Shown here: piece by piece, positions 1,332 to 52,154 of the stretch
Position numbering within the stretch: position 1 is the stretch's first letter
Layout of the letters: the number at the start of each line of letters is the position of its first letter
Origin: Colwellia sp. PAMC 21821
GTDB taxonomy: Bacteria > Pseudomonadota > Gammaproteobacteria > Enterobacterales > Alteromonadaceae
Reading direction: 5' to 3'
DNA length: 64,000 bases
Assembly (NCBI RefSeq): GCF_002077175.1
Contig: NZ_CP014943.1
Location: forward strand, 2,294,001-2,358,000
Translations under genes and position numbers: made by a program
Notes under the pieces: generated by a model
What the model was told of the DNA's origin: nothing
The model's input: only the letters and a program-made list of their open reading frames with translations
Databases searched by the model: none

Positions 1332-2198
1332 ATGAAAAAATTATTAACATCAGTTGCCGTACTAGCTAGTTTGTCAGGAACTGCAGTTGCTGATCAACTT
1401 ACTTGGGATGCTACTTGGGGTGCAAGCACTTCAGCTGGCGTTCAGTTCCCTATTAGTGAGTTTGTTATTGCGTACAACTCTCAATCTTTAGTAACAGATA
1501 ATGGCGACGGTGTATTAAGCGCTGGTGATACAATCCAGTCTTTTGGCGGATTTGGTCCAAATGGTTTTAACTCATTTGCTAGTGGCTTAGAGACTCAAGG
1601 GTTAGGCGGTTTGGATATGAATAACATAGGTAGCTTTTCACCTAATCCATTTCCAACTATGCCAGGTTACGGTAACGACTACGCATTTACATTTTTCTTT
1701 AATGATTTAATGGGTACTTTTAACGGTTCTGATTTCGTTTATAATTCAGGTACTTTGCAGTTTGGTCTTGTGTCTCTTGTACCGGCTAACACAGGCTTAT
1801 CAGCTGGCTTTCATAACTTATTTGACTTGAACATTAGTTCTGGCGGTCCTGTAACTGCTGCTGGACAAGTAAAACAAGTATTTAACGGTACTGTTGGTAA
1901 CTTTGCTAATAATGCAGGTAGTGATTTTTCAATTACTAATACAGGCAAAACTAAGACTTTAGCTGATTGGGCTGCCTTAGGTGATGTTCGTTGGGGAAGT
2001 AACCAAACGGTAACTGCTGGTTTTGCTGGTTTCGCTTCTACTCCACTTGATATTAAATTTGATAACAATGGACAAGCTGTTCTTGCAGCAAACCATACTG
2101 GTCGTTTTAGTATGCAAGTTCCAGAGCCTACTACCATTGCTATTTTAGGTTTAGGTTTATTAGGTATGGCTGGCGCATCACGTCGTAAAGCTAAATAA
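1332..2198 (+). CDS. PEP-CTERM sorting domain protein
   Basis: A 288-residue exported protein. Residues 1-20 are a signal peptide (MKKLLTSVAVLASLSGTAVA, then DQ). The C-terminus is a textbook PEP-CTERM tail: PEP at about residues 264-266, a hydrophobic stretch rich in Gly and Leu, then a basic end (ASRRKAK). Exosortase is expected to cleave near the PEP motif and release the protein to the surface or the exopolysaccharide matrix. The middle is rich in Gly, Asn, Phe and Ser and matches no domain I recognise. GGAGAT lies 5 bp before the ATG. A sigma-54-type promoter lies upstream and a strong terminator downstream, so it is probably a monocistronic regulated gene. The exosortase gene itself is not in the window. 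Confidence 0.9.
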   Translation: MKKLLTSVAVLASLSGTAVADQLTWDATWGASTSAGVQFPISEFVIAYNSQSLVTDNGDGVLSAGDTIQSFGGFGPNGFNSFASGLETQGLGGLDMNNIGSFSPNPFPTMPGYGNDYAFTFFFNDLMGTFNGSDFVYNSGTLQFGLVSLVPANTGLSAGFHNLFDLNISSGGPVTAAGQVKQVFNGTVGNFANNAGSDFSITNTGKTKTLADWAALGDVRWGSNQTVTAGFAGFASTPLDIKFDNNGQAVLAANHTGRFSMQVPEPTTIAILGLGLLGMAGASRRKAK

Positions 2199-2254: not shown

Positions 2255-2448
2255 ATCTTTAGAATATTAATATTATGTCGTATTGATGTATTATTTATTT
2301 GGTAATGAATAGCCAACCGATTGAATTTACACATCTGCTTTCTCAGTAAGTAATACCAAATGTAATAAGTTATTGACCAATTTTAAGCGAGGATAAATTG
2401 TTCAAGAATACATGTTTATTGTTCCAGACTAAACATAAGTACCTGCAT

Positions 2449-2745
2449 ATATGGACCCACTCCGTTTGCAAGACATTTAATCGTTATGTAAGAGAAAATC
2501 ATTGCTCTCATATATCCGGCCTGTTTATGAAGGATTTTTACCTTCTGGCCCCGATGGTTGTTTGCGCTCACACTCCTCATCATCCCTCCGGCTTTTTTAT
2601 TAGCCAATGCAGGTACCAGGTTTTGTGCAAGCCAGTCTGACTATCTTACCATCCGATTAATTTATCTTTTGCAACTGAAGTAAAAGGGTTTTACTGTTAT
2701 CTCATCACTGAAACCAATCTAACTTGCTTCAGTTTTGAGCTTTAT
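2449..2745 (-). ncRNA. Candidate bridge/seeker RNA of the IS110-family element
   Basis: This is the non-coding stretch 3' of the transposase, where IS1111-type elements encode their guide RNA. Read on the minus strand it contains GTACCTGCAT (complement at 2607-2616), identical to the left half of the insertion site plus the AT core. After a small hairpin (GGCT/AGCC arms, 2590-2605) comes AGGGATG (complement at 2581-2587), the reverse complement of the core plus right half (CATCCCT). That is the left-guide, stem, right-guide order of a bridge-RNA target loop. Further 3' there is a nested hairpin (GGCC outside, GAAGG/CCTTC inside, about 2523-2563) that could be the donor loop; its guides match the IS ends only weakly. 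RNA ends are not known. Confidence 0.7.
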
Positions 2746-3762
2746 TTATATAGCCGGGCGATAACTTTCCCCCTTCGCCATTATTACCCAAGCCATTCTT
2801 GCTATTTTATTCGCCACAGCAACGCATGCTTTGTTGTGTCCTCGTCGGGATTTTAACGCTTGTGCCCACAAACTAAATCGGTCAGTTTTGTTTTCACTGT
2901 GCCTTAATACTGCCCGGGCCCCGTGGATGTATAGTGTTCTTAAATAACTATTACCGCGTTTACTTATACCGAGTAAGGTGGCCTTTCCACCCGTTGAATG
3001 CTGCCCAGGAACAAGCCCAAGCCATGCCGAAAAATGTCGACCATTTACAAAGTCTTTTCCATCTCCTGCAGCTGCATAAGTAGCGCTAGCTGTGATTGCT
3101 CCAATACCTAATATTTCATCTAAGCGAACACATATTTCATTTTCTTTATTCATCGTGTTTAAGCGAACTTCACACGCTTTAAACTTCACTTCTGTGACTT
3201 GAAATTCAAGCCATAACTCATTAAATATCTCCCGACTTAAATACGTTAACTCATTTGTCGCATCCTCTAAAATATCCGGCAGTTCATTGCGAATTGCAGA
3301 AATACCTTTATTGATGACAATGCCATATTCTCCTAACAAGCCTCGTATCTGACTTGCTAATGCTTTACGTTCTTTCTTTATGCGTTCACGTTGTCGATGG
3401 AAGTTTTGAATATCTTGTTGTTCTATCGATTTAATTGGCACAAACCTCATGGTCGGGCGTTGCGCTGCCTCTGCAATACCTTCGGCATCGTTATAATCAT
3501 TTTTATTGCCTTTAACGAAGGGTTTTACATATTGAGGCGCAATAAGTTTTACTTGGTGCCCCAATTCAATAAATTTTCTAGCCCAGTAGTTCGCACTGCC
3601 ACAAGCTTCCATTACAATTAGGCAAGGCTCTAATGTTGCCATGAAACTCAACACTTGTTTTCTTCTTAATTGTTTCTTTTTTACAAATCGCCCATTTTTA
3701 TTCACAGCGAACATGTGAAAAATTGATTTTGCAATGTCTAAACCGATTGTAGTAATCTTCAT
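2746..3762 (-). CDS. IS110-family transposase (DEDD), full length
   Basis: A 338-residue serine/DEDD recombinase. The N-terminal RuvC-like domain shows the acidic set D9 (GLDIAKS), E52 (VMEACGS), D89 and D92 (NDYNDAEG). A coiled, charged middle segment (about 120-215) follows. The C-terminal Transposase_20 domain has the helix-hairpin-helix-like LDEILGIGAITA and the catalytic serine region around S256 (LVPGQHSTGGK). The length is normal for the family and no frameshift is seen. IS110-family enzymes recombine DNA using an element-encoded RNA that pairs with both target and donor. The first 232 residues are identical to the truncated copy at 45378-46091, which suggests recent activity or recent duplication. 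Confidence 0.95.
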   Translation of the reverse strand: MKITTIGLDIAKSIFHMFAVNKNGRFVKKKQLRRKQVLSFMATLEPCLIVMEACGSANYWARKFIELGHQVKLIAPQYVKPFVKGNKNDYNDAEGIAEAAQRPTMRFVPIKSIEQQDIQNFHRQRERIKKERKALASQIRGLLGEYGIVINKGISAIRNELPDILEDATNELTYLSREIFNELWLEFQVTEVKFKACEVRLNTMNKENEICVRLDEILGIGAITASATYAAAGDGKDFVNGRHFSAWLGLVPGQHSTGGKATLLGISKRGNSYLRTLYIHGARAVLRHSENKTDRFSLWAQALKSRRGHNKACVAVANKIARMAWVIMAKGESYRPAI

Positions 3763-4140
3763 GTTGATCCACTCCGCTTTTATAAATGATTGTTATCACT
3801 TTCATTTTGGCCCTAAAGAGGCCGGAAATAAAGTTGGAGTGGGTCCATACCATTATCCCTGCAGGCAAGGCGTTTGATTGATTAGGGCATGGATGCCCGT
3901 AAGTAGAACAATGCAGGAGCAATTGTCGAGTAATAGCGGACGTGTGTGATTGAAAACAACGCAGTTATTGATGATTTAAACCGCCTTAAAATGGTCGATT
4001 ATTTATTTCAATTGGTATTAATATTCAATGAGGATTATAGGGTTTTGCAGAGGGTAGGGTAATTTCAGCGACATACCCTAGATTTTATACAAAAAAACCG
4101 CTAATGCGATTTTTTATGTATAAATTAAGGTTATCAAAAG

Positions 4141-45283: not shown

Positions 45284-46073
45284 ATAATGGTATGGACCCA
45301 CTCCAACTTTATTTCCGGCCTCTTTAGGGCCAAAATGAAAGTGATAACAATCATTTATAAAAGCGGAGTGGATCAACATGAAGATTACTACAATCGGTTT
45401 AGACATTGCAAAATCAATTTTTCACATGTTCGCTGTGAATAAAAATGGGCGATTTGTAAAAAAGAAACAATTAAGAAGAAAACAAGTGTTGAGTTTCATG
45501 GCAACATTAGAGCCTTGCCTAATTGTAATGGAAGCTTGTGGCAGTGCGAACTACTGGGCTAGAAAATTTATTGAATTGGGGCACCAAGTAAAACTTATTG
45601 CGCCTCAATATGTAAAACCCTTCGTTAAAGGCAATAAAAATGATTATAACGATGCCGAAGGTATTGCAGAGGCAGCGCAACGCCCGACCATGAGGTTTGT
45701 GCCAATTAAATCGATAGAACAACAAGATATTCAAAACTTCCATCGACAACGTGAACGCATAAAGAAAGAACGTAAAGCATTAGCAAGTCAGATACGAGGC
45801 TTGTTAGGAGAATATGGCATTGTCATCAATAAAGGTATTTCTGCAATTCGCAATGAACTGCCGGATATTTTAGAGGATGCGACAAATGAGTTAACGTATT
45901 TAAGTCGGGAGATATTTAATGAGTTATGGCTTGAATTTCAAGTCACAGAAGTGAAGTTTAAAGCGTGTGAAGTTCGCTTAAACACGATGAATAAAGAAAA
46001 TGAAATATGTGTTCGCTTAGATGAAATATTAGGTATTGGAGCAATCACAGCTAGCGCTACTTATGCAGCTGCA
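45284..46073 (+). mobile_element. IS110-family element, 3'-truncated copy (790 of ~1408 bp)
   Basis: It keeps the transposase-proximal end with the subterminal repeat (ATGGACCCACTCC at 45292-45304) and the first 232 codons. It then joins directly to the repeat flank at CTGCA/GCAGG. About 618 bp are gone: the catalytic-serine domain, the 3' non-coding guide-RNA region and the other IS end. It cannot encode its own transposition. Confidence 0.9.
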
Positions 46074-51892: not shown

Positions 51893-52154
51893 TTATACCA
51901 AATGTAATAAGTTATTGACCAATTTTAAGCGAGGATAAATTGTTCAAGAATACATGTTTATTGTTCCAGACTAAACATAAGTACCTGCATCCCTGCAGGC
52001 AAGGCGTTTGATTGATTAGGGCATGGATGCCCGTAAGTAGAACAATGCAGGAGCAATTGTCGAGTAATAGCGGGCGTGTGTGATTGAAAACAACGCAGTT
52101 ATTGACGATTTAAACCGCCTTAAAATGATCGATTATTTATTTCAATTGGTATTA
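51893..52154. repeat. TAATACCAA repeat, copy D (intact, no IS)
   Basis: A 262-bp uninterrupted copy in the same orientation as copy A. It preserves the unoccupied IS target GTACCTGCATCCCT at 51981-51994. It contains internal hairpins such as GGGCAT/ATGCCC and folds overall as a long imperfect palindrome with ATTGTTC and GAACAAT in opposite arms. With flanking DNA it fills the gap 51831-52218; no gene is present. Confidence 0.92.

Follow-up and report, generated by a model that had tools for sequence, protein, structure and literature searches.

Guide RNAs of the IS1111 and IS110 groups

The closest described systems are the seekRNA elements of the IS1111 group, ISEc11, ISPa11, ISKpn4, ISPst6 and ISXne4 (Siddiquee et al. 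2024, PMC11187229). As set out there, transposases of this group have 330–350 amino acids, a DEDD (RuvC) domain, a Transposase_20 domain and a GL-P----S(t)G motif, and the elements carry subterminal inverted repeats of 11–13 bp with a 7-bp left and a 3-bp right extension. In ISEc11, ISPa11 and ISKpn4 the top-strand guide lies 5′ of the bottom-strand guide, and in IS110 this order is reversed (PMC11187229). The IS110 group further differs in having its RNA 5′ of the gene and subterminal repeats of only 2–3 bp (PMC11208160).

Palindromic repeats are known targets of such elements. The IS1111 of Coxiella burnetii, the founder of the group, targets a palindrome within a MITE (PMC5896051; PMC10969869), and 20 of its 21 annotated copies adjoin QMITE2 sequence (PMC5896051). 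ISPa11 inserts in a REP (PMC11187229), and IS621 inserts in REPs (PMC11208160). A preliminary description of the present locus had proposed that a dispersed palindromic repeat may be a new targeting preference; in view of these three cases, the proposal does not stand.

The element analysed here resembles the seekRNA IS1111 elements in transposase length and domains, the 7- and 3-bp extensions, a longer 3′ non-coding region, the guide order and a predicted junction promoter motif, such a promoter being on record for ISEc11 (PMC11187229). As with ISEc11 and ISXne4, there is natural re-programming between relatives (PMC11187229). It differs from the IS1111 elements treated in that paper in its guides and target, in the concentration of its 25 copies in one repeat family, and in that the RNA is here a predicted one. 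With the Coxiella IS1111 it shares the targeting of a palindrome within a MITE, but the MITE is a different one and PMC5896051 predates the RNA guide model. With IS621 and the bridge RNA of the IS110 group it would share an RNA-guided DEDD recombinase with two target guides, and with IS621 also a repeat as target, there a REP (PMC11208160).

As the mechanism has already been published, the locus represents a clear new example and not a new system. New are the programme of the element, its sisters whose guides address the terminus of a MITE-like repeat, and a set of natural sites that bear witness to protection and scarring. The element appears to be a well-supported IS1111 seekRNA element, ordinary in kind, for which the evidence is unusually clean, and it provides independent, sequence-only support for the IS1111 seekRNA model.

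The element and its transposase

The window, by which is meant the whole 64-kb stretch of DNA that was analysed, contains one complete and one truncated copy of the element. The features are as follows.

2448..3855, minus strand: complete IS1111-group insertion sequence, 1408 bp, with a 7-bp left and a 3-bp right extension
2746..3762, minus strand: transposase, 338 amino acids, with DEDD_Tnp_IS110 and Transposase_20 domains; NCBIfam ‘IS110 family RNA-guided transposase’
3849..3855, minus strand: 7-bp left terminal extension TAATGGT, whose TAAT completes the predicted circle-junction –10 box on its 3′ side
3836..3848, minus strand: left subterminal inverted repeat, ATGGACCCACTCC
2451..2463, minus strand: right subterminal inverted repeat, GGAGTGGGTCCAT
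2448..2471, minus strand: right end with the predicted –35 box TTGCAA (2466–2471)
45285..46073, plus strand: second, truncated copy, encoding transposase residues 1–233, in the same repeat site

The genome is a single contig of 4,884,300 bases and has 26 matches to the element: 25 full copies and the truncated one, which lacks its 3′ portion up to the right flank and, with it, the RNA region.

The transposase belongs to the IS1111 group by its DEDD N-terminal domain (PF01548, E 1.1e-17), its Transposase_20 C-terminal domain (PF02371, E 4.2e-21), its length, and the sequence GLVPGQHSTG in its translation, in which the GL-P----S(t)G motif was recognized by eye. NF033542 gives E 1.9e-103. The solved structures related to it by sequence are distant, namely those of ISCro4 (9t56, E 4.2e-6) and IS621 (8wt6, E 6e-5).

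The subterminal inverted repeats are 13 bp long, with extensions TAATGGT on the left and ATA on the right, as in other IS1111 elements; the empty site agrees with these limits, and in the convention with 7- and 3-bp extensions there is no target duplication. Non-coding DNA amounts to 298 nt 3′ of the transposase gene vs 93 nt 5′ of it, and the longer downstream region is again an IS1111 property. When the ends were joined in a script, the junction formed a predicted promoter motif, TTGCAA-16-TATAAT, scored without a null. Among 53 representatives of the RNA-region clusters described below, each scored at the best of five spacings, TATAAT is present in 13 and a fit of at least 9/12 to both consensus boxes in 35, likewise without a null. 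Beside the element, at window positions 1332–2198, is encoded a protein with C-terminal VPEPTTIAILGLGLLGMAGASRRKAK, presumably a PEP-CTERM-like sorting tail.

Putative guide segments and target

The segments of interest are in the 3′ non-coding region of the element, and the target is within a 256-bp repeat.

2607..2616, minus strand: putative guide 1, GTACCTGCAT, complementary to the right-flank top strand plus core (transposase frame)
2590..2605, minus strand: hairpin GGCT...AGCC between the guides
2581..2587, minus strand: putative guide 2, AGGGATG, complementary to the left-flank bottom strand plus core (transposase frame)
2354..4017, plus strand: 256-bp MITE-like repeat split by the element into a left piece (2354–2447) and a right piece (3856–4017)
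51896..52151, plus strand: uninterrupted copy of the 256-bp repeat, with TTA on both sides and the target at 51981–51994

The minus strand of 2581–2616 reads GTACCTGCATTGGCTAATAAAAAAGCCGGAGGGATG. A guide-like segment, the hairpin and AGGGATG had been reported at these positions, and an unoccupied target at 51981–51994; direct reading of the sequence bears out both. The uninterrupted target, GTACCTGCATCCCT, is the sole match in the window at up to two mismatches, in a search where 21 of 100 shuffles also gave at least one match. In the 4.88-Mb genome the 14-mer occurs exactly 11 times, vs 0 for a reversed control pattern. It is a palindrome, CCTGCA..TGCAGG. The two segments do match the two halves of the site, but the halves had been named left and right on the plus strand and not in the transposase frame, and the naming has been changed here.

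Read directly in the window element, the top-strand match is 5′ of the bottom-strand match, and therefore the layout is that of IS1111 and not of IS110. The RNA region also lies 3′ of the gene, which again differs from the IS110 group and its IS621 bridge RNA. Thus the order of left guide, stem and right guide, which had been attributed to both groups, holds for the IS1111 seekRNAs and not for IS110, where it is reversed (PMC11187229).

Very probably, this is an IS1111-group element with a 3′ seekRNA that directs insertion into the repeat. In the mechanism proposed, the 3′ non-coding region would yield a seekRNA whose outer stem encloses an open internal loop, in which guide 1 is followed by a small hairpin and then by guide 2. 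The first guide would pair with the core and the right half-site on the top strand, and the second with the core and the left half-site on the bottom strand. The DEDD transposase together with the seekRNA would excise the element as a circle, the circle junction would form a promoter for both the transposase and the RNA, and insertion at GTACCTGCA^TCCCTGCAGG would always have the same orientation. Published relatives are our basis for the steps in which the RNA is expressed, processed and bound by the transposase, the circle forms and strands are exchanged.

Scaffold of the predicted RNA

Secondary structural analysis was based on relatives of the element, and locates the following features.

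2533..2651, minus strand: predicted seekRNA scaffold, 3′ of the transposase gene (covariance model E 3e-27, with its own sequence among the training rows)
2625..2632, minus strand: 5′ arm of the outer stem, GCUUGCAC
2566..2573, minus strand: 3′ arm of the outer stem, GUGUGAGC

In an alignment of 19 relatives and copies the scaffold is conserved apart from two islands of variable sequence. In 16 sequences the outer stem shows changes on both sides in 8/8 pairs, and over both helices 92.3% of cells are paired (0/500 shuffles; 35–45% in slid versions). Unconstrained RNAalifold finds the same outer stem and leaves both guides unpaired. A fold that placed the two segments in paired, non-guide stems had been named as evidence against the guide reading; instead, the consensus has both of them unpaired inside a strongly covarying stem, in agreement with the IS1111 seekRNAs, where unpaired guides sit in the loop of a structured RNA.

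The covariance model, made from the 16 sequences, gave 68 matches in 67 of 89 loci, with 15 of the 67 being training rows. The scan covered L018 and 88 of the 111 loci of relatives; most additional copies from the same genome were left out. All but one of the 68 matches (67) are on the same strand as the transposase and 0–300 nt 3′ of its stop codon, the one in L082 being farther away; two matches in L125 correspond to two adjacent identical copies.

The single-sequence fold is unexceptional (z –1.48; equalled by 15 of 200 shuffles), and it permits pairing of CCU in guide 1 with AGG near guide 2. Single-sequence folding was judged unpersuasive as sole support. A search of Rfam with the element gave no family match at E ≤ 1. 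Also present on the minus strand are the conserved segments GATATATG (2509–2516) and CCAT (2554–2557), which could pair with the element ends at the circle junction in a donor-guide-like manner.

Guides and flanks in related elements

Relatives were sought in 246 genomes of one family, among them that of the window, and 56 of these had a match at E ≤ 1e-60; further loci consisted of 22 from named contigs and 60 more copies that were fetched. L036 (genome G180 of this family) and L073 (Paraglaciecola arctica) agree in match coordinates and in identity, and the family probably includes Paraglaciecola. Usable ends were found in 113 of the 137 loci (L009–L145), and the remaining 24 had no stop codon, or an inverted repeat that was absent or unusable. 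Elements with both flanks of at least 14 bases numbered 108 and formed 53 RNA-region clusters, one of which comprises the 25 copies of this genome.

In a wide test of these 53 clusters and 108 elements, guides score 12.45 with their own flanks vs 9.84 with swapped flanks, a difference reached in 0/20,000 permutations. The guide spacing is 14–21 nt in 34 of the 53 best placements, where –2 to 45 was allowed. Only 11/53 clusters beat every swapped flank. With the guide order reversed the score is 11.42 vs 9.81 permuted (0/20,000), probably because many targets are palindromic. Since the reversed order also beat its permutations, the wide test shows matching and not order, and the comparison was dropped as a discriminator of guide order.

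A second test was done in fixed register on 12 of the 16 elements of alignment A1; L065 and L067 have short right flanks, and the ends of L036 and L038 were not found. Here guide positions are set by the hairpin, and little search freedom remains. Guide 1 scores 7.88 of 11 with its own flank vs 4.97 with swapped flanks (0/50,000 permutations), and guide 2 scores 6.46 of 8 vs 5.06 (2/50,000). Taken singly, every swapped flank was beaten in 4/12 elements by guide 1 and in 3/12 by guide 2, in part because shared targets raise the swapped scores. Weak matches to guide 1 were found in L064 (5.5 of 11), L072 (6.0), L079 (6.5) and L042 (3.0), the last owing to a hairpin anchor that is off by a base. 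Guide–flank matching is a collective signal. It had been argued that homologous elements with the same 3′ region at unrelated sites would speak against guides; as a group, elements with other guides are in correspondingly other sites, and single relatives match poorly. Together with the consensus fold, this supports the reading of both segments as guides.

A fortuitous match of the 10-mer and the 7-mer has to be considered, as the guides were picked post hoc at the first reading. The estimate then given, of about 600 positions over 4^10, is arithmetically correct, but it is itself post hoc and is superseded by the fixed-position test. Coincidence is contradicted by the permutation tests on relatives and its probability is practically nil.

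Another view is that the transposase itself recognizes a hairpin-forming palindrome, the RNA matches being a by-product. The target is indeed palindromic, and by eye several targets of close relatives appear so as well. However, the palindrome arms differ among close relatives, with guide 1 differing along with them at a fixed place, and the element is missing where single bases of the target have changed (see below). This alternative is considered very unlikely. On the RNA-guided reading, the several naturally re-programmed relatives, built on one RNA scaffold, could supply a programmable insertion tool with guides and targets that are already matched.

One full copy, L027, has guide 1 GTACTTGCAT and a hairpin loop of 7 A, yet sits in the standard target. 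The A-run in the hairpin loop is 5, 6 or 7 among copies of the element.

The target repeat

The 256-bp repeat has imperfect inverted ends, TACCAA...TTGGTA, as seen by eye. Of 43 copies examined, 41 have both ends, and 36 of these have identical 3-bp flanks (TAA or TTA). The repeat is short, with terminal inverted repeats and a target duplication, and thus has MITE characteristics. Copies are 96–100% alike. At least 18 full uninterrupted repeats are present, from 40 of 141 candidates scored, and L186 is a further copy that is internally deleted. Searched with 62 bases of the repeat, the genome gives 41 matches.

Among the 25 full copies of the element, 24 are in the same site of this repeat. 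The 25th, L018, is in another palindromic repeat, whose core is identical and which departs from guide 2 by a single mismatch. The core, and the orientation relative to it, are shared by all 25 copies.

Such uniformity might arise without any targeting if a mobile repeat had carried the element along with it, and the MITE-like nature of the repeat, its 3-bp flanks and the similarity of its copies are in keeping with this. However, haplotypes of element and repeat are unlinked (Mantel r 0.054, p 0.26, for 22/25 copies with L018, L028 and L029 dropped), and diversity per bp is about five-fold higher in the repeat (0.0143) than in the element within it (0.0028). L032 and L033 have identical copies of the element in host repeats with 7 differences, and L018 occupies a different repeat altogether. 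From the absence of linkage and the greater diversity of the repeat, the element most likely entered standing repeats. Carriage within a moving repeat was rejected as the main cause by the haplotype-linkage test, and we regard it as very unlikely.

Empty and altered sites

The guide-matched 14 bp are altered in 8/18 empty repeats vs 0/23 occupied ones (Fisher p 0.00046; the empty repeats are those among the 40/141 candidates scored). In a scan of 14-bp windows none exceeds the target, and the best window clear of it has p 0.025 in the opposite direction. With L186 and the broken repeat L029 added, the counts are 8/19 vs 0/24 (p 0.00052); without L159, L160 and L161, which are possible products of loss of the element, they are 5/15 vs 0/23 (p 0.006). 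A binomial test on individual differences, of which 13 fall within the target and 20 elsewhere (p 2.9e-7), was set aside in favour of the per-copy Fisher test, because it counts multi-base changes several times.

Four of the altered empty sites (L151, L152, L155 and L157) have single-base changes at guide-matched positions. L163 has an 8-bp deletion, L161 has an extra AT, and L159 and L160 read TACC-ATTA-TCCC.

L159, G000:C1:3059643-3059660: ATTA, as at the end of the element, in place of TGCA
L160, G000:C1:815720-815737: the same

These two look like sites that lost the element. Deletion between the TACC of the flank and the TACC of the element end would create them. As the repeat appears to be mobile itself, both may go back to a single event. 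TACCATTATCCCTGCAGG is found at up to one mismatch in 28 places, which are the 24 full copies, L018, the truncated copy, and L159 and L160. Candidate scar-type sites are TACCATTATCCC or GTACCTGCATATCCC. IS492, of the IS110 family, reportedly excises and forms circles, the excision being termed precise. The present case is similar in that an element of IS110/IS1111 type appears to have been lost from its site, but the candidate scars are imprecise.

The repeat family may thus record an RNA-guided element together with escapes from it: sites that are intact would become filled and those that are broken would remain empty, some breaks being scars of its loss (ATTA in two copies and an extra AT in one). 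We give this reading an even chance of being right; a point against it is that 10 intact full-length sites are also empty. If the reading is correct, it would reveal the fate of the donor site in IS1111 transposition, a point left open in PMC11187229. It would also mean that loss of the element can immunize a site against re-insertion. In the open-licence literature found, neither escape of a target nor a scar of excision is mentioned for IS1111 elements in titles and abstract openings.

For the altered empty repeats there is also the view that an unbroken palindrome is a mutation hot spot, where neither protection nor loss of the element is involved. Palindromes are mutable, and the 8-bp deletion of L163, at direct repeats of CCTGCA, is of the kind that slippage produces. 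Against this, the ATTA of L159 and L160 is that of the element end and is at the exact place, four of the altered sites have single-base changes at guide-matched positions, and 8/8 alterations fall inside the guide-matched 14 bp. A hot spot is possible but doubtful. With the altered and scarred empty sites it becomes possible to test what happens to donor sites of IS1111 elements and how much change in a target these elements tolerate.

Sister elements

Four elements with transposases 49–59% identical (L039, L042, L075 and L040) have a guide 1 of the TAATACCA or CACATACCA type, and are inserted at sites of the (A)AT^TGGTAT or AA^TGGTAT type. In genome G066, TTTATGCGAATTGGTATTA has 98 matches at up to three mismatches vs 13 for the reversed control, and many of these are in inverted pairs about 300 bp apart (e.g. 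24448 minus and 24745 plus). The sequence therefore looks like the terminal repeat of another, abundant MITE-like element of about 300 bp. A tie of the sister elements to the window's own repeat was rejected, as G066 has only two matches to the end of that repeat at up to three mismatches.

L039, L086 and L087, all of G066, are inserted in this apparent MITE-like terminal inverted repeat. Targeting of transposon ends is said to be known for IS4321/IS5075. The three insertions are similar in being in the terminal repeat of another element, which here is MITE-like with TACCAA ends. Thus, the internal palindrome of one repeat and the end of another appear to be addressed by related guides.

A further, large group of relatives (L052, L056–L058, L060, L061, L063, L092–L094, L096–L103 and L106) is inserted at TAAC^GCC or TAAC^GCT, and in many clusters of this group the best guide matches are GGGCGATA and AACGCC. 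These sites resemble what we take to be integron attC ends.
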